Shown piece by piece: positions 5,701-18,980 of a stretch of DNA of 20,670 nt; position 1 is the first letter of the stretch, and every line of letters begins with the position of its first letter. The stretch lies in IMG/VR virus record IMGVR_UViG_3300027759_000522, positions 1 to 20,670 of that record, one strand, 5' to 3'. Source of the DNA: a virus. The notes beneath the pieces are model-generated. The model was not told the origin of the DNA, ran no database searches, and saw only the letters and a list, made by a program, of their open reading frames with translations. A program made the translations under genes and the position numbers.

Positions 5701-6342
5701 CTATAGTTTCAAGTCTTTGATCAAGCGAGTTACCTGCTCTTTCAAATACTTTTGTACTCGTTGATTTCCGCCAGCCTCGCCAGCGATTTCCAACACCCTA
5801 TGACCGTTGCGCATATTCATCATGCCTTCGTAGATTGCATGAGGATATGCATGAGGAGCGGATGGTTGGGCGACCACATCCACCGTGATTATTTCAAAAT
5901 CACTCACATGTCCCGAGCCTTCGCTTACATTACCTGATCCGCGACTGCTCACACCTAGTTTGACTCCGCTTTCCAACATGGTTTTAACCAGGTTACCCAT
6001 TGGAGTCGGTAACACTTTTAATTTTCCGTAACCACAATGACCGTCCATCCACATGTCAGTGATCATGTGGCTAACTCTGTCAAGGTTAATTTTCAAGTCA
6101 TCTGGGTGATCTACTTCACCCAATACGGAATAGCCACCTTTGATCTGCTCATTGATGGTGCTTACGGCTTTTGATATTTCGTGAATAGGGTAAACACGTT
6201 GGTTGGCGTTTTTCAAGCCACCTTCGATGAATACCCCTTTCATATAGAGATTCTTACCGCCTTTGCCGTCGTTGGTTTCTTCTGTTAGAAGCTCCATACG
6301 GGCCGCATCAAATGTAAGATTCTCTCTTAGGTACGAAGCCAT
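5701..6342 (-). CDS. 21: Prohead maturation protease gp21
   Basis: A 213-residue serine protease of the T4 gp21 family, which cleaves capsid and core proteins after [IL]-x-E during head maturation. The N-terminal GKNLYMKGVFIEGGLKNANQRVYP is characteristic. LGEVDHP (about 74-80) holds the presumed catalytic His79. KLGVSSRGSG (about 128-137) holds the presumed nucleophile Ser132 or Ser133. FEIITVDVVAQPSAPHA (about 149-165) is the conserved block after it. The length agrees with T4 gp21 (212 residues). The start is taken at the ATG at 6342; the only upstream purine tract is AGGG at about 12 nt. It stops 10 nt before the gp22 start, and the gp22 ribosome site overlaps its stop. Confidence 0.95.
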   Translation of the reverse strand: MASYLRENLTFDAARMELLTEETNDGKGGKNLYMKGVFIEGGLKNANQRVYPIHEISKAVSTINEQIKGGYSVLGEVDHPDDLKINLDRVSHMITDMWMDGHCGYGKLKVLPTPMGNLVKTMLESGVKLGVSSRGSGNVSEGSGHVSDFEIITVDVVAQPSAPHAYPHAIYEGMMNMRNGHRVLEIAGEAGGNQRVQKYLKEQVTRLIKDLKL

Positions 6343-9418: not shown

Positions 9419-12400
9419 TTACAAACTCGATTGATAATGACGTTCAGCAATGTCTTTATGTCTGCCCAGTGTGTCAATCATTTCACGTTGTTGTTCTATT
9501 TGCTTTTGGCTGATCATCACCAGCTGGCTCATGTTGTCTGTTAGTGTTTTCATTTCTGGGCTTGCTTCTGCTCGAGGCTTATCCTGCTTGGCAAGTTTGG
9601 TATCGTCTGATTTGGCTTCTTCTTTTTTAGGAGCAACTGGTTTCATTGCATCTGTCATTGCTGCCACTTGCCCTGCAAGGCCGCCTACCACTGCACCCAT
9701 TGGGCCGCCTACCATAAAGCCAGCGCCTGCGCCGGTCAGTAGATCTTTGTTTTTACTAGCAAAGTCTCCAATGATGCCTTTGTCAGAGAACGCATTCTTG
9801 ATGCTGTCCATTGCACCACTCACAGGATCTTTGCCTGCATTGTCTTTGTTGAGTCCCTGTGCCTTGCCCATCAGCTGTGCAAGTTCAGGATTGTCTTTCA
9901 TGTACTTGTCAAACTGTTCCTTGCTTGCAGGCTTGCCGTTGATGGTAAATGTTTCTGACTGCTTGCCTGTAACAGGTTGAGTGTTACCAATGTTAAAGAA
10001 GCTTTTGGCTGAGTCTACTAGTCCGCCTAACACACCTTTTTCTTTGTTGTCTTTGGCTGTGACATTTTCAACCAGTGTGCCAATACCCCCGCCAAGTATG
10101 GTACCAAGTCCTGGAAGTAACATTGTGCCAATGGCCGCGCCCACTGCTGTGCCACTGTTTAGTCCCATCTTTTCTAAAAAGTTTGGCTCGTCTTTTTTAT
10201 CACTGCCTTTAGTTTTTGCAGTACTAGCTTTTTCTGCTGTCTTGCGCTTCCAGTCTGCAAACTGTTCGTCTGTCATGCTCTTGCGAGCCAACCGTTCTAC
10301 CTGCAACGATTCCATGCGGGCCATGTCTTGCTTGCTCAGGCTGTCTAGTTGTACGTTTACTAGTTTGCTATTGTTGTCTAACTGCTGACCAAACAATGAT
10401 CTAGTTTGAGCAAACTGTTCATCAAAGTTTGATTGATTCAAGCTTCTTGTTTTGTCGAGGTCTGCCAGCATTGTGCTGGTTGTTAGCTTGGATCCAACTT
10501 GGAAGTCATCAAACAACTTGCTGCCAAAATCAGTGGCTTCAAAGTTAACTGGCTGTCTCATGGCTGCAAACATTTTGTCAAAGCTGCCAGTATTTGTATT
10601 GCCCTTACCTTCGCCGGGTGTTGGTTTGACCATGTCAAACGTTTTACTCAAACTAGATGTCATTGTTGAACCCATGCTACCAAAGCCTGAGTTCAATGTT
10701 TCTGTAATTGTATTTTTTTGTGCTTCTGCCAATGCCATTGGGTCAATGCTAGGTATACTAACGTCCAATGGTACCTTGCCGCCCACAGTAGGAATAACTG
10801 CTTCCTCTCCGTGCAATGCCACTGCATAGCCACTTTCAGGACCTGATGCTATACCACCACGTGCATATCCGTTTTTCTTAAAATATGCAGTTTCTGCATC
10901 AACCCGCTCTTTTCTTACATCGTCAACTGTTTTACCAGTCATAGCTTGTAGCAGACCACTCATCAACCCACCAGTTAATGTATCAGTTACTGCTCCAGCT
11001 TTTTCAATACCCCGGGCGGCACCAGACTCTGCTTTCTGGTACCATTTCATCTTCTTCCAGTTTTCGTCGTCTTGCTGGTCAATTTGAGATTTACCAGCTT
11101 GTTTGCTACCTGCTCCTAATCCAAGTTCATTGATTGCAGTTCTTACACTTTCAAGCATTGCTTTGCTTACTTCAGCAAACTTTGCAATGGCTGGCGTTAG
11201 CAGATCTTGCAGTGCAAGTTTCAAATCTTGTGCGGCTTTTTCGGCACCGATCACACTGTTTGTCAGTGCGTCTGACGTAGTTTTTGCGGCTTCTGTATTT
11301 TTCTTTGCGGCTTCTACACCTTCTGCTGTGTAGGTGTTTGCTTGTGTCAATGCGTCAGCCATTGCTTGCGCGGCACCTTTAACAGACTCTGCGCCTGAGT
11401 AGGCAGCAACACCCAGTGCTTGTTGACCTAGAATACTTTGTTTGATTTGTTCACCGTACTGTTGATTAAGATCTGCATTTGATGTTGCTGTGAGGTTACC
11501 TTGTTCAGCTAGTTTGAATGCTGCCTCGCCTTTAGCTCTTGCTCCATCAATGGTTGCTTCATAGATTGCACCTTCTTTATTGATAACTTCACCAAACACC
11601 ATGCGGTCGCGGAAATTTTTCTTTTCCTGATCTGTCATAGTTGCCATGGCCGCGTCAAGTTGAGCACGTTGCTCTTGACTCATGCCAGCTACTTTTTGTT
11701 GGAATGCAAGCACAGCATTTTCCTGCTGTATTGCAGCCATTTTCTTTTTAGCATCCTCACCAGTAATAGAACTAATGAGTCTTAGATTTTCTGCATACTT
11801 GGCTGTTTGTTCTGCTACTTTTTTGTCGTCTAGTTTACCACCGCCTGCTTTACGCATGTTGGCCATGGTTTCTGCTGTGAGTGCTGCCTGTTCTTCAAAA
11901 CTATACCCTAGTTTCAATAACTGATCTTGCACACCACTGTTTTTAAGCTGTTGCCCAACTCTACCAATCTGTTTAGCACCTTCTACAACACCAAGCCCTG
12001 ACGAACCAATTAGTTCACTATTTGCACTAACTACTTTTGAAAACTGTTCAATCGTGAGTCCTGCTCCTGATGCCGCATTTCGCATACCAGTCATACCGTC
12101 GGCAAATATTGCGCCGCTGGCACTCATAGCATTGAATGCGCCAACTGTTTTTTCTACTTCTTTGCTCAGTACTTCAACGCCAAATTTGGCCAGCTTGCCC
12201 ATGGCGTCAGATGCGGCACCAGTTACAGTGCCCAATACCTGAAGTCCTATTCCAACAAACTTGGCTGGCCCAGGTAACGCCGATAACGCACCACCTACAC
12301 CAGACATGACGCCACCAAGTGCTTTACCTGCACCGGCAGCAACATCTATACTGGCATTCATCAACCCAGATGCTAGCTCTGTTCCAGATGCATTGGATTG

Positions 12401-12859
12401 TAATCCTTTGATTAGTCCGCCAACGGCTTTGGTGGCACCGCTGGCCAGAGTCTTACTCATTTCTACTGCACCAGTTGTCACTGATGCACGTGCTTGATTT
12501 CTAGCTTCTTGTGCTTGTAATTCGTCTCGTTTGGTTTCTAATGCCGCTTTATCAAATTCACTGGTTGCATGTTTTGCGGCTTCTGACAGTCGATCAATAT
12601 CAGCCTGCATGCTCTTGAAGGTGCTTTTGCCTGTGGCCAGTTCTTTGAAGAATGAACCAAATTCTGGCTTGGTTTTTTGTTTTAGATCTGTGCTGAGTTT
12701 GCGCAACTCAATGTCTAGCTCAGCCGCAGTTAATCCAGCATCACCAATTTCTTTGATTTTCTTGGTAGTTGCGTCTGTCTCACCACGAAGTTTTCCAAAA
12801 GCCTCAAATAGAGCTTTCATCATCATTTCTTGTTCGGGTGTCATTCCTTCTGCGGCCAT
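9419..12859 (-). CDS. Tape-measure-like tail protein
   Basis: A 1146-residue, Ala/Gly/Lys-rich, mostly helical protein. Evidence for a tape measure is the great length, the coiled-coil character of residues about 1-130 and 830-900, hydrophobic Gly/Ala-rich segments (about 175-225, 935-965 and 1050-1075), and above all YARGGIASGPESGYAVALHG followed by EEAVIPT (about 690-716). That motif recurs in tape-measure proteins of many tailed phages. This class of protein sets tail length inside the tube and leaves ahead of the DNA. It may fill the role of T4 gp29, but T4 gp29 is only 590 residues and no direct similarity is seen. The start at 12859 has AAGAGA upstream and a perfect late octamer 53 nt upstream. 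It reads toward gp20. Confidence 0.8.
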   Translation of the reverse strand: MAAEGMTPEQEMMMKALFEAFGKLRGETDATTKKIKEIGDAGLTAAELDIELRKLSTDLKQKTKPEFGSFFKELATGKSTFKSMQADIDRLSEAAKHATSEFDKAALETKRDELQAQEARNQARASVTTGAVEMSKTLASGATKAVGGLIKGLQSNASGTELASGLMNASIDVAAGAGKALGGVMSGVGGALSALPGPAKFVGIGLQVLGTVTGAASDAMGKLAKFGVEVLSKEVEKTVGAFNAMSASGAIFADGMTGMRNAASGAGLTIEQFSKVVSANSELIGSSGLGVVEGAKQIGRVGQQLKNSGVQDQLLKLGYSFEEQAALTAETMANMRKAGGGKLDDKKVAEQTAKYAENLRLISSITGEDAKKKMAAIQQENAVLAFQQKVAGMSQEQRAQLDAAMATMTDQEKKNFRDRMVFGEVINKEGAIYEATIDGARAKGEAAFKLAEQGNLTATSNADLNQQYGEQIKQSILGQQALGVAAYSGAESVKGAAQAMADALTQANTYTAEGVEAAKKNTEAAKTTSDALTNSVIGAEKAAQDLKLALQDLLTPAIAKFAEVSKAMLESVRTAINELGLGAGSKQAGKSQIDQQDDENWKKMKWYQKAESGAARGIEKAGAVTDTLTGGLMSGLLQAMTGKTVDDVRKERVDAETAYFKKNGYARGGIASGPESGYAVALHGEEAVIPTVGGKVPLDVSIPSIDPMALAEAQKNTITETLNSGFGSMGSTMTSSLSKTFDMVKPTPGEGKGNTNTGSFDKMFAAMRQPVNFEATDFGSKLFDDFQVGSKLTTSTMLADLDKTRSLNQSNFDEQFAQTRSLFGQQLDNNSKLVNVQLDSLSKQDMARMESLQVERLARKSMTDEQFADWKRKTAEKASTAKTKGSDKKDEPNFLEKMGLNSGTAVGAAIGTMLLPGLGTILGGGIGTLVENVTAKDNKEKGVLGGLVDSAKSFFNIGNTQPVTGKQSETFTINGKPASKEQFDKYMKDNPELAQLMGKAQGLNKDNAGKDPVSGAMDSIKNAFSDKGIIGDFASKNKDLLTGAGAGFMVGGPMGAVVGGLAGQVAAMTDAMKPVAPKKEEAKSDDTKLAKQDKPRAEASPEMKTLTDNMSQLVMISQKQIEQQREMIDTLGRHKDIAERHYQSSL

Positions 12860-12911
12860 ATTTTTTCTCTTGGGTTATTTCTTTACGGTTAAATACACAT
12901 GTACTCAATTA

Positions 12912-12919
12912 TATTTATA
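12912..12919 (-). promoter_or_regulatory. T4-type late promoter (TATAAATA) in a divergent region
   Basis: The minus strand reads CCTATAAATATAA, an exact T4 late octamer 53 nt upstream of the tape-measure ATG at 12859. The 70-bp gap 12860-12929 separates divergent genes. On the plus strand GTTAAATA (12888-12895) is a weaker late-like match for the gp26-like gene, 34 nt upstream of its ATG. AGGA lies about 8 nt before that ATG. Confidence 0.7.
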
Positions 12920-12929
12920 GGATCAATAT

Positions 12930-13787
12930 ATGGACACTAAATCCGTCAAAGCACCTGCATCAAATCCGCTAGCAAAACATTTTAGACAACCCGCAATTTA
13001 TCTTGCACTACCAAGTCTTGGGCGCTGGTGGCCAGAAGGTTCACTGGACATGCCTGAAAATATGGAGATTCCTGTCTACCCAATGACCACAAAAGACGAA
13101 ATCTTGCTTCGCACTCCTGATGCGTTGTTGAATGGATCTGGTGTTGTGGGTGTTATACAAAGCTGTTGCCCAAACATTAAAAATGCATGGGACATGCCTA
13201 GCATTGATGTGGACCCTGTGCTGATTGCTATTCGCATCGCCAGCTACGGACACCGCATGGATTTTGGCGGACAATGCCCGCACTGCAATGAAAGCAATGA
13301 TTATGCAATTGACTTGCGCACAGTAAGTGACGGAATGAAATGCCCGGACTTTGATATTCCTGTGGAAAGCAATGATCTAAAAATTGTGTTGAAACCACAA
13401 AGATATTTTGCAGTGAATCAAAATAATCAACTGCGCTTTGAAGAACAGCGCATCATGAGCATTGTTACAGATGATTCAGACCCTGAACTAAAAACCAAAA
13501 TGTTCAATGAAAGCATGACCAAACTAAATCAGCTGAACATCGACGGCCTAGTATCCAGTACTACTTCAATCACAGTAGAAGATCAGGAAGTGACCGACGA
13601 AGCATTTATCCGTGAATTCTTTGAACAAACAGACAGCAAGATTGTGCGACTGATTCAAACACGACTAACTGAAATGGCCATGGAAGCCAACGTCAAACCT
13701 GTGCCTGTCAGTTGCATGGAATGCAAAAAGCCATTCACTATCACAATCACATTTGACTACGCAAGTTTTTTCGCAACCGGCTCCTGA
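12930..13787 (+). CDS. 26: gp26-like baseplate hub / tail-assembly chaperone, zero-frame product
   Basis: A 285-residue protein resembling the T4_baseplate (gp26) family. Near the N-terminus KHFRQPAIYLALPSLGRWW (about 16-34) and MPENMEIPVYPMTTKDEILLRTPDALLNG (about 41-69) are family landmarks. CPHC (116-119) and CMEC (262-265) form a four-cysteine zinc-ribbon-like pair flanking a variable, charged middle. In T4, gp26 acts with gp51 in baseplate hub assembly. In other phages the gene next to the tape measure makes its chaperone. The last codons contain T TTT TTC (13766-13772), after which the -1 frame continues into the 13814-14002 ORF. Some product is therefore expected to be a 357-residue fusion. 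It is divergent from the tape measure. Confidence 0.85.
   Translation: MDTKSVKAPASNPLAKHFRQPAIYLALPSLGRWWPEGSLDMPENMEIPVYPMTTKDEILLRTPDALLNGSGVVGVIQSCCPNIKNAWDMPSIDVDPVLIAIRIASYGHRMDFGGQCPHCNESNDYAIDLRTVSDGMKCPDFDIPVESNDLKIVLKPQRYFAVNQNNQLRFEEQRIMSIVTDDSDPELKTKMFNESMTKLNQLNIDGLVSSTTSITVEDQEVTDEAFIREFFEQTDSKIVRLIQTRLTEMAMEANVKPVPVSCMECKKPFTITITFDYASFFATGS
13766..13772 (+). promoter_or_regulatory. Programmed -1 ribosomal frameshift site T TTT TTC
   Basis: In the zero frame the codons are AGT TTT TTC, so the heptamer fits X XXY YYZ exactly. After a -1 slip both tRNAs re-pair on TTT (both Phe). The zero frame stops five codons later (TGA 13785-13787). The -1 frame from 13772 has no stop until 14002 and passes through the ATG at 13814. 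A 9-bp inverted repeat (13806-13814 with 13826-13834) lies 33 nt downstream, further away than usual for a stimulatory structure. Confidence 0.78.
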
Positions 13788-13813
13788 CATTAGACAATGA
13801 CGCAATTTCTCGT

Positions 13814-14002
13814 ATGATCGAGGGTTACGAGAAAGAGTCACGAGCCATTAGAGAAGAAGCGTTGCGTTTTAGTTGGTGGATGCGTGGAGGTTTATCATAT
13901 GAAGACGCAATGATACTCAGTCGAGAAGAACGCGAAATCATTTCAGAAATTATCAAAGACAACTTGGAGAACACCAAGAAGTCAGGCATGCCAATGTTCT
14001 AA
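13814..14002 (+). CDS. 51: gp51-like C-terminal domain, probably made by -1 frameshift from the gp26-like gene
   Basis: As an isolated ORF it has 62 residues, starting MIEGYEKESRAIREE and continuing RFSWWMRGGLSYEDAMILS, then a Glu/Ile-rich helix and the end TKKSGMPMF. Short proteins of this pattern ('SWWMRGG-[IL]-S-x-EDA...ERE-I...TKK-x-x-MP') follow the gp26-like gene in T4-like phages and are sometimes called gp51 (hub assembly catalyst). The ATG at 13814 has no ribosome site and its first base lies in a 9-bp hairpin stem. The frame is open upstream without a stop to the slippery heptamer at 13766-13772. I therefore infer that it is mainly translated as a 76-residue extension from 13772. 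Similarity to the gpT half of lambda gpGT is one of layout only. Confidence 0.75.
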   Translation: MIEGYEKESRAIREEALRFSWWMRGGLSYEDAMILSREEREIISEIIKDNLENTKKSGMPMF

Positions 14003-14477: not shown

Positions 14478-14906
14478 TCAGAGTTTGTTGATTATGTGTG
14501 AGCCATGTACACGAACTTGAATGTGTCCGTTATAGTAGTCTGTTGATTCTAGCACTTTGCGTGTGAATTGTTCTCGGGCTTCGATGTATGAGCATTCTGC
14601 TTTGGATTTACAAATAAAGAGGATTTCTCTGGTGAAGTTTTCTGTGCCCAGAGCAACAACATCTTTTGTTAGTTCCGGGCTTGAGCCATAATAGGTGCGC
14701 CAATCACTGTCGATCTTGGAGCGGATTTTCTTTTTCTTTTTGGTGCCGTTTTTTAGCTTTACTGTTTTAAGTGTGGTCTTAGAAAATTTTGCTAGTTTTT
14801 TACCTATGTACTTGCGGCCAGAGATAGTATTAGTGATCATGTAGACAAACCCAATGCAGTCATCGGGCAGTTCCTCTACTGTTTTGCCTTGAAAAGTCCA
14901 TGTCAT
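14478..14906 (-). CDS. GIY-YIG-family endonuclease
   Basis: A 142-residue single-domain nuclease. The GIY-YIG core is seen as GFVYMI (19-24) and KYIGKK (32-37). A basic loop follows (KNGTKKKKKIRSK, about 52-64), then DWRTYYGSSPEL (68-79), a block typical of phage members. YIEAREQF (about 108-115) carries the presumed metal-binding Glu109. GIY-YIG enzymes cut DNA; phage versions include Seg-type homing endonucleases and repair or degradation nucleases. No intron surrounds it and there is no separate DNA-binding domain. It starts 44 nt after the radical-SAM gene stop on the same strand, so it is probably the last gene of that transcript. No good ribosome site is visible. Confidence 0.75.
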   Translation of the reverse strand: MTWTFQGKTVEELPDDCIGFVYMITNTISGRKYIGKKLAKFSKTTLKTVKLKNGTKKKKKIRSKIDSDWRTYYGSSPELTKDVVALGTENFTREILFICKSKAECSYIEAREQFTRKVLESTDYYNGHIQVRVHGSHIINKL

Positions 14907-14950: not shown

Positions 14951-16477
14951 TCAGTGTTCTGTGTCAATTTGTGCCAGTTTTACTAGAGGTTTAGTGCGGT
15001 CTTGGCCTATAATCTGCTCCGCAATGATCTTCAATATCTTGAGTTCTTCTGTGCCTTTGGTGATGGGATAGTTTAGTCTAGCACTAAGCTCATGCACCTC
15101 TAAACGGCGCCGCAAGCGTTCTTTTAGTGTTAATGTTGGGTTATTTAGGTTGATCCAGTTGCGTCCATACACCCAGTCTTGATCTTGGTCTTCCAAATGG
15201 CTCAAGTTCAAATCAGGCCATTCAGGCACCAGCTCAAGTCCTAGATTGCTGAGTTCCAGTCTACTGCCGCGATCTATACTGCCTGTGTATCCCCAGCGTA
15301 TGAGTGCTATGGTACCTGCTTGCATGTACTTTTGATAGCGTTTCAAGAATTGTAGCTGTTCTTTATGATCAGACATTGTTTCTGTTGGGTAGCCTATGAA
15401 CATTAAAAATACGTTTTGTATGCCGTAGCGAGCACACATGCGAATGTGATGATCTAAATCATCGTTGTCAAACTCTTTGCCCATGTGCTGTCTTACAGCC
15501 CAGCTGGCATGTTCAACTCCAGTGATCAACATACGACTGCCACCTGCTGCCATGGCAGCGTACATTGTTTCTGGCATGTCTTTGGCCTTGCGTATGTTAA
15601 ATTGGCTCAGCCATGTGGGCTTGAACTCTGGATTTTCTTGTGACAGTCTAGCAATGTTTATATTAAGAGAATAAAACTCTTTGAGGTTACCGTTGATAAC
15701 GCTGTCGGTAAACTGAAACAGTTGTACTTTTGTTTCTTTCCAGTGCTGTAACATTTCATTGGCCATGCTCTCACCTGTACGATATTTGTACTTGGGCCAG
15801 CGATGTGGCACATCACAAAATGTACAACGGCGCACACAGCCTCGAGAAGCAGTCAAGTAAATGCCTGCTGTTTGATTGTAAAAGTATTTCCACGGATCTA
15901 GCTTGCTGAAGTCTGCAGGAGGCAAAGATTCAATGTCATCAATTTGCACAGTAGGCCGATCATCTGTTCCGTCTACATCAAAGTTGCCTTGCATCCATTG
16001 CTGCCACATGATCTCGCCATCACCCCAGCCCACATGATCCACTAGACTCTGTTCACGCAACCAGTCGCCAAAGCGTTTGGTGCCGTACGGAGTAGTGAGT
16101 CCTTGCCCACCCGCTACCAACATCACTTGACTCATTGGTCGGAAACGTTCACAGAACAATCTAGCCGCACGAGTACTAAACTTTGAAAACACACTCACTG
16201 CCACACAGTCATAGCCGCTGGCAATGATGTTGTCTATAGTGATGTCAAACTCTTCAAACACTCGCTGTGGCAACAGCCTGTCATGTGCTGTGCGCCAGTA
16301 GTCACTGGCTTCTGCAAATTCTTCTGCTGTCAGCTTCTTTGCCAGTTGTAGATTGATATCAAACACCGTGTAATCAATACCCATGTGACGACATAGTCCG
16401 CCTAGCACAGCAGGTGCGGCAGGTGGTCGTTCAAGCTCTTGGCTTGGGAAAGTTACAATGGCCACACGTTTATACAT
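14951..16477 (-). CDS. B12-binding-domain radical SAM protein
   Basis: A 508-residue radical-SAM enzyme. Residues about 1-165 look like the cobalamin-binding-type Rossmann domain that precedes many class B radical-SAM proteins: MYKRVAIVTFPS, then PPAAPAVLGGLCRHMG, VAVSVFSKF and MLVAGGQG. The radical-SAM core begins TASRGCVRRCTFC, with cluster ligands Cys214, Cys218 and Cys221 (CxxxCxxC). LFQFTDSVINGN, ITGVEHASWAVRQHMGKEF and VFLMFIGYPTET are typical TIM-barrel strands. The C-terminal third is not recognised. Related proteins do methylations or carbon-skeleton chemistry; the substrate here is unknown. ATG at 16477 is preferred over TTG at 16480. It overlaps the stop of the preceding gene by 8 nt (ATGTATAA), so the two are coupled. 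Confidence 0.85.
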   Translation of the reverse strand: MYKRVAIVTFPSQELERPPAAPAVLGGLCRHMGIDYTVFDINLQLAKKLTAEEFAEASDYWRTAHDRLLPQRVFEEFDITIDNIIASGYDCVAVSVFSKFSTRAARLFCERFRPMSQVMLVAGGQGLTTPYGTKRFGDWLREQSLVDHVGWGDGEIMWQQWMQGNFDVDGTDDRPTVQIDDIESLPPADFSKLDPWKYFYNQTAGIYLTASRGCVRRCTFCDVPHRWPKYKYRTGESMANEMLQHWKETKVQLFQFTDSVINGNLKEFYSLNINIARLSQENPEFKPTWLSQFNIRKAKDMPETMYAAMAAGGSRMLITGVEHASWAVRQHMGKEFDNDDLDHHIRMCARYGIQNVFLMFIGYPTETMSDHKEQLQFLKRYQKYMQAGTIALIRWGYTGSIDRGSRLELSNLGLELVPEWPDLNLSHLEDQDQDWVYGRNWINLNNPTLTLKERLRRRLEVHELSARLNYPITKGTEELKILKIIAEQIIGQDRTKPLVKLAQIDTEH

Positions 16478-17066
16478 CAAGAGTTTGTTTTATTTCTTTA
16501 ATTAATTGTAAATCTTCGTCGCTGATACTGCGATGGTTATCTCGTATCTGTCCTGTGGGGTCAACCAAGGTACTGAGCACACGCTGAGTGCGTTGTTCTT
16601 GATACCACGACCAAAAGTCTTGACTGTTGGGCAAGTTCATGATCATGTACCTGCCAGGAAAGTGCCATACCAGCTGACTACGTTGTTCTTTAGGCGCATC
16701 AGGATTGCTCCTAAGGTATCCTTGAAAGTAACTGGGATAGTAGTAGTGATCAGTCCAGAACCAAGACTCCAGTAGAATATCATCAGCGTGTACGCTGAGT
16801 AATTCCAAACTTTGATCACGCACAATCTTTCCGTCTTCTAGCACAGTTTCTGATTCGTATTTGTTAAAGTAACCAATACTGATGTTGTTGGGGACTTGGG
16901 CAAAGTCCACAGTAACACTAGCACTGGTGTCTTTGCTATTAATTTCAAATGTATTAATTTGATAGTTGTTCACGAGAATAAAAATCCTGGGCCATGTTAC
17001 TCCTGGCTGTGGATTAAACTTGAATTCAAAAGTTATTTTGTCACCACGAGGTCGCATAGTTTTCAT
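16470..17066 (-). CDS. Unknown protein within the radical-SAM operon
   Basis: About 198 residues. The N-terminal half is a likely beta-sandwich: ITFEFKFNPQPGV, WPRIFILVNNYQINTFEI, SASVTVDFAQVPNNISIGYFNK, and DGKIVRDQSLELLSVHADDI. This strand pattern recalls small carbohydrate-binding-type domains, but that is a weak impression. The second half is aromatic-rich (ESWFWTDHYYYPSYFQGYL, WHFPGRYMIMNLP, FWSWYQEQ) and ends in a charged helix. It has no Cys and no signal peptide. The start could be ATG 17066 or 17057; TTG 17072 is unlikely. It overlaps both neighbours (26 and 8 nt), so it should be made with the radical-SAM enzymes and may be their partner, substrate carrier or binding subunit. I do not recognise the family. 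Confidence 0.72.
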   Translation of the reverse strand: MKTMRPRGDKITFEFKFNPQPGVTWPRIFILVNNYQINTFEINSKDTSASVTVDFAQVPNNISIGYFNKYESETVLEDGKIVRDQSLELLSVHADDILLESWFWTDHYYYPSYFQGYLRSNPDAPKEQRSQLVWHFPGRYMIMNLPNSQDFWSWYQEQRTQRVLSTLVDPTGQIRDNHRSISDEDLQLIKEIKQTLDV

Positions 17067-18051
17067 CCACAAATTTTTGATTGCATTTGGTTGTACACTC
17101 CAGCCACTTGAACTGTTGGAATTCGTTTTTCCAAAAGTTATCAGCTAGCACACTCTCTAGTGTACTATGTTTAAGGTTGTATGCACGACCTCTATCTAGC
17201 CACTCTGTGTTGTGTCCATAGCGGTTGGCTACCCAACAACACGGAAAGAAGTCGCCTTGACTGTTGATAAACAATCCTTTGTTGCCCACTGCACACAGTG
17301 GTAGGATGTCTCCGGTGTAGTTTTGTTGCGCTTGTGCATAGTGCTGTTTTGCAAATGGGGTGTCTCTAAGCACTCGTCCGCTTAGATTATCTATATCTCT
17401 TTCAAATCGCATGCTAGAGCTGATGAGTTGATCTCTAGGCTGTAGCGCATCGCTAGGACCGTATATTGGATATACTTTGGCAAATTTGGTACTGCGAGTA
17501 AGCTGGAATTGATCCATTTCTAATTCACGTGCTTGCTCACGCATGACATCAACATGATCTTGATTGAATTCAAATGCAATAGCGGCCCAGGTAATGTTTA
17601 CGGGACTTGTGCTTCTCAATGCACGTATACCGCGCATGATGCTCTCCCAATCACTATTGACCCTGTAGATGTTATTACTGGCATTATCATAGCCGTCAAT
17701 GCTGAAATGCACTTGATCTTGTGCCCCTAGGAACCGTCCTAGACCCTGCCACCACAGTGCATTGCGATAGCTGCCGTTGGTCACAATAACAATTTGCACA
17801 GGGTAAATACTCTTGACGTATTCAATTACTGACACCAGCTCATGTGCATATATTGGATCACCATCGTCTCCGCAAAATGTAATCTTACGCACGTTTTCTC
17901 TTATAAAATCAGGAGTAAAGTTTCGTTGAAAGAATGCCAGGTCCAGTTCTGTGTTGACCAGCCCATCTGGTACTTCTTGTCTACTGCATCTAGGACAGCG
18001 TAGAGTACACTTGCTTGATATCTCAATGTGCCAGTGCCATGTTGCTAACAC
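17041..18051 (-). CDS. Radical SAM protein with SPASM-like C-terminal cysteine cluster (second copy)
   Basis: A 336-residue radical-SAM enzyme. KCTLRCPRC supplies Cys15, Cys19 and Cys22 (CxxxCxxC). Barrel landmarks are ITFCGDDGDPIYAHEL (about 57-72), IVIVTNGSYRN (about 87-97) and VHFSIDGYDNASNNIYR (about 114-130). The C-terminus has Cys253, Cys271-Cys272, Cys319 and Cys323, resembling a SPASM/Twitch auxiliary Fe-S domain, including FPCCWV. Such enzymes modify peptides, sugars or cofactors; the substrate is unknown. The start is GTG at 18051, with GAGGAGG about 5 nt upstream, overlapping the previous gene's TAG by 7 nt. The gene is paralogous in layout to the 18045-18980 gene. The two differ enough not to be a recent duplication. 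Confidence 0.85.
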   Translation of the reverse strand: MLATWHWHIEISSKCTLRCPRCSRQEVPDGLVNTELDLAFFQRNFTPDFIRENVRKITFCGDDGDPIYAHELVSVIEYVKSIYPVQIVIVTNGSYRNALWWQGLGRFLGAQDQVHFSIDGYDNASNNIYRVNSDWESIMRGIRALRSTSPVNITWAAIAFEFNQDHVDVMREQARELEMDQFQLTRSTKFAKVYPIYGPSDALQPRDQLISSSMRFERDIDNLSGRVLRDTPFAKQHYAQAQQNYTGDILPLCAVGNKGLFINSQGDFFPCCWVANRYGHNTEWLDRGRAYNLKHSTLESVLADNFWKNEFQQFKWLECTTKCNQKFVDENYATSW

Positions 18052-18980
18052 AAAGCCTCCTCAGACTTCCATTGTTCTTGAAATGCAGTTTTGTCTTGAC
18101 CAACAGAGCAGTGTCGTTTACACACAGCATCTGGTTCGGTGATAATACTGTTGAATGATTCCACTTGTTCTCGTAGTACAGGATTGTCCCACGGCAGTTG
18201 TTTACTAAAAATGTCACTGCCAAAAAAGCAACATGGTAGCACTGCTCCTGTTGCTGTGATATAAATGCTTTGTTCTTTTAATGCATGGCAACTGACAGTG
18301 GTGCCTGCGGCCGGTGCAGTATGCCCAGTTGGAGGACGCAACCATTCCACAGGACGTTCCTGGAATCGCGAGCTTACCTTGGTGCGAAAACGTGTGAAGC
18401 CCATGTCACGTGCCAGTTCACGGCAAGCATCAACTTGATGTTGATTGTGTTCGTACACCAGCATGTCCCAGTGTGCAGTACCACCTGAGGCAATGTATGC
18501 TTCTGCATTGGCCATCAGTATGTCCCATTGTACGCCAGCACGGTAGATGTGATTGGTGTCTTCTAGTCCGTCAATGCTGAACACCACATAGTCCAGTTCG
18601 TTCTTCATGTTGTTGGCCAGCTCTTGCCACCAGTACTTGGTACGCAGGCCGCCATTGGTATTCATGCCTAGCACAATCTTGGAGTTGACTGCACGAAAGT
18701 ATTGATATATCTGTAGTGTGTCTTTTGCTGCCGCTGGGTCGCCAAAGTTACCGCACATGAACATCTTGTCCAGCTGACGTATCAGCTGATCTGGCACTAG
18801 TTGTTGTACTTGATTGAGTCGTAGTTCACTAGCATGCTGTTCATGAACATACTGCTCAGGATTCATTCGGGCACACTGAGGGCAAGCCGCATTGCAAGTG
18901 GTAGTGGGCTCGATGTGTAGTACTCGGATGTTGTCATAGTTAAACTGCGTCAACATCGGTGTTGTAGGAAGTGAATCCAT
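18045..18980 (-). CDS. Radical SAM protein with SPASM-like C-terminal cysteine cluster (first copy)
   Basis: A 311-residue radical-SAM enzyme. LHIEPTTTCNAACPQCARMN supplies Cys29, Cys33 and Cys36. Barrel landmarks are MFMCGNFGDPAAAKDT (about 73-88), GMNTNGGLRTKYWW (about 105-118) and VVFSIDGLEDTNHIYRAG (about 132-149). Auxiliary cysteines are Cys231, Cys250-Cys251 (LPCCFFGSD), Cys287 and Cys291. This is the same C...CC...CxxxC spacing as the neighbouring copy. The reaction is unknown. The start is taken as ATG 18980, which overlaps the gp46 coding end by 41 nt. ATG 18956 is an alternative; neither has a good ribosome site. Its position directly after gp46 ties the accessory enzymes to a core replication gene's transcript. 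Confidence 0.85.
   Translation of the reverse strand: MDSLPTTPMLTQFNYDNIRVLHIEPTTTCNAACPQCARMNPEQYVHEQHASELRLNQVQQLVPDQLIRQLDKMFMCGNFGDPAAAKDTLQIYQYFRAVNSKIVLGMNTNGGLRTKYWWQELANNMKNELDYVVFSIDGLEDTNHIYRAGVQWDILMANAEAYIASGGTAHWDMLVYEHNQHQVDACRELARDMGFTRFRTKVSSRFQERPVEWLRPPTGHTAPAAGTTVSCHALKEQSIYITATGAVLPCCFFGSDIFSKQLPWDNPVLREQVESFNSIITEPDAVCKRHCSVGQDKTAFQEQWKSEEALC

Follow-up and report, generated by a model that had tools for sequence, protein, structure and literature searches.

A conserved T TTT TTC slip site and a downstream RNA stem point to a frameshifted gp26-like tail assembly chaperone gene in a T4-related phage of the jumbo-phage branch

Phage lambda makes two tape-measure chaperones, gpG and gpGT, the second through a -1 slip close to the 3' end of the gene for the short form; excerpts of PMC5009743 describe this slip as conserved widely, with T4 as the exception. 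For gp26 and gp51 of T4, roles as chaperones or cofactors have been proposed (PMC9024508). The tail assembly chaperones of T4-like phages were identified by Vladimirov, Gautam and Davidson (2022, Virology 566:9-15; as cited in PMC10885494 and PMC12846349), and the title of that paper states that they suggest a mechanism other than frameshifting. According to passages of the PRFect paper (PMC10885494), some T4-like phages have a short gene together with a fused long gene, while passages of the Adele paper (PMC12846349) name poly-T stretches as known -1 signals in T4-like chaperone genes. The same passages propose a -1 slip at GTTTTT for the chaperone of the Vandenendeviridae, where the extension is annotated as hypothetical. 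PMC3711429 concerns a different chaperone cluster.

The locus described here lies in IMG/VR record IMGVR_UViG_3300027759_000522, of which positions 1 to 20,670 were analysed and are called the window below. It resembles lambda gpG/gpGT, as outlined in PMC5009743, in having a putative -1 slip site near the end of a short gene for a putative tape-measure chaperone, followed by a -1 frame extension. It differs from lambda in its core domain, which is PF12322, in its heptamer, T TTT TTC, and in the divergent orientation of the chaperone gene relative to a tape-measure-like gene. T4 gp26 and gp51 share PF12322 with the window gene, and gp51 has a C-terminal extension, but in T4 the two are encoded by separate genes and gp26 has no heptamer. 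As far as the citing texts describe them, the T4-like chaperones of the 2022 paper likewise comprise short and long forms of one chaperone. The slip proposed for the Vandenendeviridae myovirus is also a -1 slip on a T run, but in another phage group and at another slip site. A link between slippage and the two-gene arrangement of T4 therefore appears not to be new, having been in print since 2022 to judge from the citing papers. A slip in the jumbo branch was found in no title or abstract opening, and a literature query for TTTTTTC returned nothing; subscription journals were outside the scope of both searches. The sequence comparisons reported below indicate, with a probability of about 0.9, that the gene starting at 12930 is frameshifted and encodes the tail assembly chaperone of a T4-related jumbo-branch phage, with a short form of 285 and a long form of 357 residues.

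The features of the locus are as follows.

9419-12859, minus strand: ORF of 1146 aa adjoining the gp26-like gene and divergent from it, assessed by BLAST and synteny
12930-13787, plus strand: gp26-like ORF, short form of 285 aa, putative tail assembly or baseplate hub chaperone core (PF12322, phrog_150, AlphaFold2 model)
13766-13772, plus strand: slippery heptamer T TTT TTC, codons Phe280-Phe281, in frame with the ATG at 12930
13772-14002, plus strand: -1 frame C-terminal extension, 76 codons plus stop, an open frame with conserved FFRxRLL...W.MRG...N and pN/pS 0.19
13779-13788, plus strand: 5' arm of the RNA stem, starting 6 nt 3' of the heptamer and overlapping the zero-frame stop; fold z = -2.80
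13806-13834, plus strand: predicted inner hairpin in the loop of the stem, present in the MFE and centroid structures of the window sequence alone
13814-13816, plus strand: first -1 frame ATG after the heptamer
13837-13846, plus strand: 3' arm of the RNA stem, pairing with 13779-13788 (fold and covariation)

By its sequence, the window belongs to a T4-related phage of the jumbo-phage branch, and members of the gp23, gp20 and prohead protease families are encoded near the gene. The 285-residue product matches PF12322 (T4_baseplate) with 57 bits (cut-off 24.5; E = 2.9e-15), residues 41-282 covering profile positions 9-219 of 219, and the domain terminates at the slip site. It also matches phrog_150 ('baseplate hub') with E = 1.9e-20. 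An AlphaFold2 model of this product, built from 9 sequences, has a mean pLDDT of 84, with values below 50 for residues 278-285, which include the zero-frame tail. In BFVD, the rank-1 match of the model is a T4-like baseplate hub assembly protein, and gp26 of Aeromonas phage 25 follows at rank 42 (E 1.1e-4). Comparison with the PDB gave none of 924 aligned chains at Z 8 or more; the matches are mostly helical pairs, and the 50 matches listed mainly cover residues 139-223 and include no solved tail chaperone, so that they exclude nothing. The structure model of a gp51 relative has a pLDDT of 81.7.

The gp26-like ORF ends with gca AGT TTT TTC GCA ACC GGC TCC TGA. The heptamer is in the phase required for a tandem -1 slip and lies 19 nt 5' of the stop codon at 13785-13787; an open -1 frame extends from 13757 to 14002. 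Joined at the slip site, the two frames would encode a product of 357 residues with the second Phe of the heptamer as residue 281. The first-pass annotation had placed a perfect heptamer at Phe281, an open -1 frame running through the ATG at 13814 to 14002, products of 285 and 357 residues and no ribosome site before the downstream ATG; its coordinates all hold on inspection of the sequence and frames, and no SD-like sequence is visible upstream of 13814. Its description of a fused 'gp51-like ORF' needs to be narrowed, since the counterpart of gp51 is the fused product and the small ORF corresponds to a C-terminal extension, not to a whole gp51. In-frame X XXY YYZ heptamers occur elsewhere in these genes at 0.0054 per codon (119 in 22,033 codons), and the chance of finding one within the roughly 9 codons of open -1 frame before the stop is about 1 in 20. 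Taken alone, the heptamer of the window is only suggestive. It is the presence of a heptamer at the same place almost throughout two sets of relatives that removes chance as an explanation.

In the first set, consisting of window-clade and jumbo-phage loci, 106 of 107 loci combine a heptamer at this position with an open -1 frame; it reads TTTTTTC in 105 and TTTTTTT in one (XacN1). These 106 loci stem from IMG/VR scans for relatives of the window gene (11 loci, and the best 80 of 530) and from 15 of 16 fetched jumbo-phage records; the sixteenth, L027, lacks the heptamer and is the 107th locus. Eight contigs (L002-L009) are present twice, leaving 98 distinct records with 66 distinct junction and extension sequences, and the gp26 of L002 is identical to that of the window, so this contig may come from the same phage. 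The second set contains 87 loci of the cyanophage/Straboviridae type, namely the best 80 of 127 found with gp26 of cyanophage DSL-LC02 and seven phages (DSL-LC02, P-TIM68, HTVC008M, phiAS5, Aeh1, phi-Grn1 and YB07). All 86 scoreable loci carry the in-frame heptamer (84 TTTTTTC, 2 TTTTTTT), and the remaining one, L188, was left unscored with its gene running off the contig. Pooled, the sets contain 189 TTTTTTC and 3 TTTTTTT, and a closed -1 frame was found in none of the scored loci. These counts refer to related sequences and not to independent events. T4 and SJ_PmiM, which have two genes, and 20 Ackermann-type loci stand outside both counts. In total, 63 phage records match the window protein, of which the 16 jumbo records were fetched, and 11 further records came from T4 and cyanophage searches, including T4 by accession. 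Among these 11, the slip site is present in seven and absent from two (Vi01, Cygsa01), while two (T4, SJ_PmiM) have separate gp26 and gp51 genes. The junction alignment that the first-pass annotation had proposed as its own check thus came out in favour of a conserved site, and stops in the -1 frame, named there as grounds for refutation, do not occur in the scored loci. Relatives lacking the site, also named there, are rare within the clade in question (L027), but the distant Ackermann-type phages do lack it (0 of 20). The T run of the slip site is at least seven long in HTVC008M (L117, around 4693; eight T), XacN1 (L023, around 5786) and L170 (around 4711), and in these three polymerase slippage could add to ribosomal slippage.

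Codon usage was analysed in 84 clusters formed at 80% identity. The residue before Phe-Phe is of nine kinds (Ser, Asn, Asp, Ala, His, Arg, Gly, Thr, Tyr), yet its codon ends in T in all 84 clusters, against a background of 0.56. The first Phe is encoded by TTT in 84 of 84 and the second by TTC in 81 of 84 clusters, while the background is 72% TTT. Directly after the heptamer, the -1 frame codon specifies Arg in 70 and Gln in 9 of the 84 clusters, and the zero frame is variable; the zero-frame stop follows 7 to 40 nt from the heptamer start. The extension is under purifying selection: pN/pS is 0.19 among 295 close pairs and 0.485 across all 496 pairs of the window clade, for which pS is nearly saturated. 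Possible starts within the extension show no comparable order. The first -1 frame ATG occupies scattered positions among relatives, with no consistent start, and a single one of 83 clusters has a 4-base SD-like core ahead of the first start that the -1 frame could use. Its absence is a weak argument against a separate start, because the gp26 starts themselves show the core in just 36 of 84 clusters. An SD-like sequence of at least 4 bases is found 5' of the heptamer in 29 of 84 clusters, the ten printed being of the cyanophage type. It is not claimed as a stimulator, because it lies within Glu-Gly codons.

The 70-nt stretches 3' of the heptamer fold more stably than shuffled sequences, with a mean z of -2.34 and values below -2 in 54 of 84 clusters, whereas control stretches from the same genes (n = 60) have a mean z of 0.02, with 2 of 60 below -2. 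RNAalifold found no consensus structure in the first alignment (A4). Both stems discussed here were therefore proposed by eye from the sequences and then tested by shuffling and sliding, that is, post hoc. In 32 sequences from the window clade and its relatives, 80.6% of the cells of the window-type stem are paired, as compared with 26-52% for slid partners. Compensatory changes occur in 26 cells versus 9.2 after shuffling, a number reached in 0 of 500 shuffles; counted as pairs with any double change, the result is not unusual (matched in 112 of 500 shuffles). The cyanophage set has a different, compact hairpin at nearly the same spacing, with 77.0% of cells paired. Here, 12 cells are double-changed versus 4.5 after shuffling, but some slid versions reach 10 to 12, and the number of double-changed pairs is again not unusual (235 of 500 shuffles as high). 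The window-type gene has a covarying RNA stem that starts 6 nt 3' of the heptamer.

From the heptamer, frames, conservation, selection, stem and core homology to gp26 and gp51 computed here, we infer slippage, its efficiency, the commoner form and the chaperone roles of the products. Most ribosomes would stop at 13785-13787 and release a short form of 285 residues that corresponds to T4 gp26. A minority would slip by -1 in tandem on U UUU UUC, aided by the RNA stem 6 nt downstream, and would read on to 14002, which would give a long form of 357 residues corresponding to T4 gp51. If lambda gpG/gpGT is taken as a model, the core shared by both forms may bind the tape-measure protein, while the extension may recruit parts of the tail tube or hub.

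Several other explanations of the same sequences can be weighed against a ribosomal slip. That codon bias acting on a conserved Phe-Phe could account for the heptamer has a negligible probability: Phe-Phe is indeed invariant in a 19-sequence family alignment, but a preceding codon that always ends in T across nine residues, together with the near-fixed TTT-TTC order against a background of 72% TTT, rules out chance and codon bias, and T4 retains Phe-Phe without a slip site. It is also very unlikely that the extension is translated on its own, whether by coupled re-initiation or from a start in the -1 frame such as the ATG at 13814. This arrangement is the one recorded in 19 of 22 annotated heptamer-bearing records, which list the extension fully or partly as a separate small gene (three omit it), and TAATG is found at the zero-frame stop in some relatives; the scarcity of SD-like cores counts for little, given their modest frequency at gp26 starts. 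However, the first ATGs are scattered, conservation begins at the heptamer, upstream of most starts, and a separate start would leave both the T TTT TTC codon pattern and the stem unexplained. A separate start for the extension was therefore judged unlikely. The ATG at 13814, at a position unconserved among relatives, is probably an internal Met codon of the extension, and the separate start with ribosome site that the first-pass annotation had listed against itself was encountered as an SD-like core in a single cluster.

The frame could alternatively be changed by RNA polymerase, adding one U on the T run, and the six-T run, extended to seven or more T in the three scored loci named above, lends this idea some plausibility. 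A run of six T is nevertheless short for polymerase slippage. The terminal C, which shortens the run, is kept in 81 of 84 clusters, and heptamer phase, 6-nt spacer and stem all fit slippage by the ribosome, which makes the polymerase a highly improbable source of the frame change. A different objection accepts the slip but takes its products for virion parts of the baseplate hub instead of tape-measure chaperones. The PHROG and Pfam labels (baseplate hub and base plate protein) agree with it, as does the record of CBB, which calls the gp26 homologue a structural protein, and excerpts of PMC3004832 report genetic support for gp26 in the hub. The same excerpts, however, count both gp26 and gp51 among the chaperones of hub assembly and describe gp51 as absent from the final particle. 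In the PA5oct record, ESI-MS/MS notes are attached to the neighbouring virion genes but not to the gp26 homologue, and the window gene adjoins the tape-measure-like gene. Hub parts are accordingly an unlikely identity for the two products, and the frameshifted chaperone is retained as the preferred reading.

In lambda, the chaperone gene adjoins the tape-measure gene, and the usual layout is chaperone followed by tape measure in one operon. The first-pass annotation had noted that such slips in tailed phages lie next to the tape-measure gene; a tape-measure-like ORF does adjoin the gene here, but on the minus strand (9419-12859), divergent from it. BLAST relates this 1146-aa ORF to syntenic virion-protein genes of BF, Munch, GAP32, CBB and RaK2 (E 2.8e-9 to 1.6e-6), and the record of the RaK2 counterpart notes similarity to tape measure. 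Pfam, PHROG and NCBIfam searches of the ORF gave weak matches only, none of which names it. By its length, its synteny and this one record note, the ORF probably encodes the tape-measure protein. In 12 of 15 annotated jumbo records (Phosso, PA5oct, 121Q, RaK2, Kaldavass, BF, Munch, CBB, SCTP-2, GAP32, Hallingskeid and XaC1), a portal gene and a long gene lie on one strand and are followed by gp26 on the other, the portal-sized gene of Munch being annotated as 'capsid assembly protein'; the gene order differs in Atu_ph07, XacN1 and Vibrio 2.275. In the window, the chaperone and tape-measure-like genes (9419-12930) diverge from a short shared intergenic region. Further observations concern the other side of the gene. 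An ORF at 14478-14906 (minus strand) resembles a SegE-like GIY-YIG endonuclease, although its best PHROG is labelled 'NAD synthetase', apparently a misnomer. Three radical-SAM-like genes occupy 14951-18980 on the minus strand (14951-16480, of the B12-binding type, 17041-18051 and 18045-18980), with an unnamed 200-aa ORF at 16470-17072 between them. This cluster, an unusual phage cargo whose best NCBIfam matches are far under the cut-offs, adjoins an ORF that resembles, by eye, a gp46-type exonuclease subunit.

T4 gp26 and gp51 both match PF12322 from its first to its last position (8.8e-64 and 3.9e-52) and both match PHROG 150. T4 gp26 terminates with the domain, while gp51 continues for about 48 residues. 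By sequence, the two are paralogues of the domain of the window gene, with gp51 as the long form. The proposal of the first-pass annotation that the pair in the window is the equivalent chaperone pair is supported, with the qualifications given here. The -1 extension of the cyanophage set aligns with the gp51 tail from the junction Phe onwards (hhalign 97.2%, E = 4.5e-11). The window-clade extension matches the gp51 tail or the cyanophage-type extension weakly (hhalign 5-9%; 8-18% with jumbo rows), and the 121Q-type extension alone scores 0.4-4% against cyanophage-type or gp51 tails, with reversed controls at 0.1-0.2%. Window-clade and 121Q-type extensions match each other at 97.3%, and it is through this match and its position that the window-clade extension can be tied to the gp51 tail. 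Direct comparison does not support the small -1 ORF as an outright gp51 homologue, and it is accepted only as the equivalent of the gp51 tail by position and family. The link to T4 that the first-pass annotation had expected to be notable holds in a sharper form, although the idea had apparently already been published and direct similarity to the gp51 tail is strong for the cyanophage extension and weak for that of the window.

Where gp26 lies beside a gp51 gene, the last 80 nt of gp26 contain no heptamer in 10 of 10 loci, several of which are near-copies of T4; in one, L208, the gp51 frame stops early at 120 aa. From an eleventh gp51-encoding locus (L202), gp26 was not recovered. T4 gp26 encodes Phe-Phe as TTC TTT, which is no slip site, and translation in its -1 frame would continue into gene 25. 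In SJ_PmiM, gp26 contains AAATTTA in frame, 25 nt 5' of the stop, but there the -1 frame is closed. In a tree of 42 cores, gp26 and gp51 are sister groups (97/91) within a group (81/83) that they share with the frameshifting phiAS5, Aeh1, phi-Grn1 and YB07, and frameshifting genes occur on both sides of the longest inner branch. Because the pair are sisters among frameshifting relatives, the T4 line probably exchanged an ancestral slip for a gene duplication; the tree on which this rests is deep and unrooted.

The Ackermann-type loci follow another pattern. None of the 20 (Vi01 with 18 near relatives, and Cygsa01, which groups with Vi01-type phages at 98/96) has the heptamer. These loci (L115, L210-L227, L032) have a conserved -1 extension ORF with ATT TTC at the place of the heptamer and strongly conserved flanking bases, and the extension is perhaps made in some other way. 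In the jumbo record L027 (LR756508), an extension-like sequence at 5734-6021 is in the +1 frame, with its own overlapping ATG.

On balance, it is fairly probable that the U UUU UUC slip and its stem are ancestral across the T4-like superfamily, including the jumbo phages. The T4 line would have hard-wired the ratio by a single duplication after loss of the slip, with gp26 as the short and gp51 as the long form, while the Ackermann-type phages and L027 would have moved to other ways of making the long form. The locus represents a deeply conserved putative frameshift cassette made up of heptamer, 6-nt spacer and covarying stem, and annotation misses the long form that the gene would yield. If this history is true, the same chaperone ratio would be set by at least three different mechanisms; the two T4 hub chaperones would go back to one frameshifting gene that was duplicated and no longer slips, and the proportion of the two forms should be important for T4 too.
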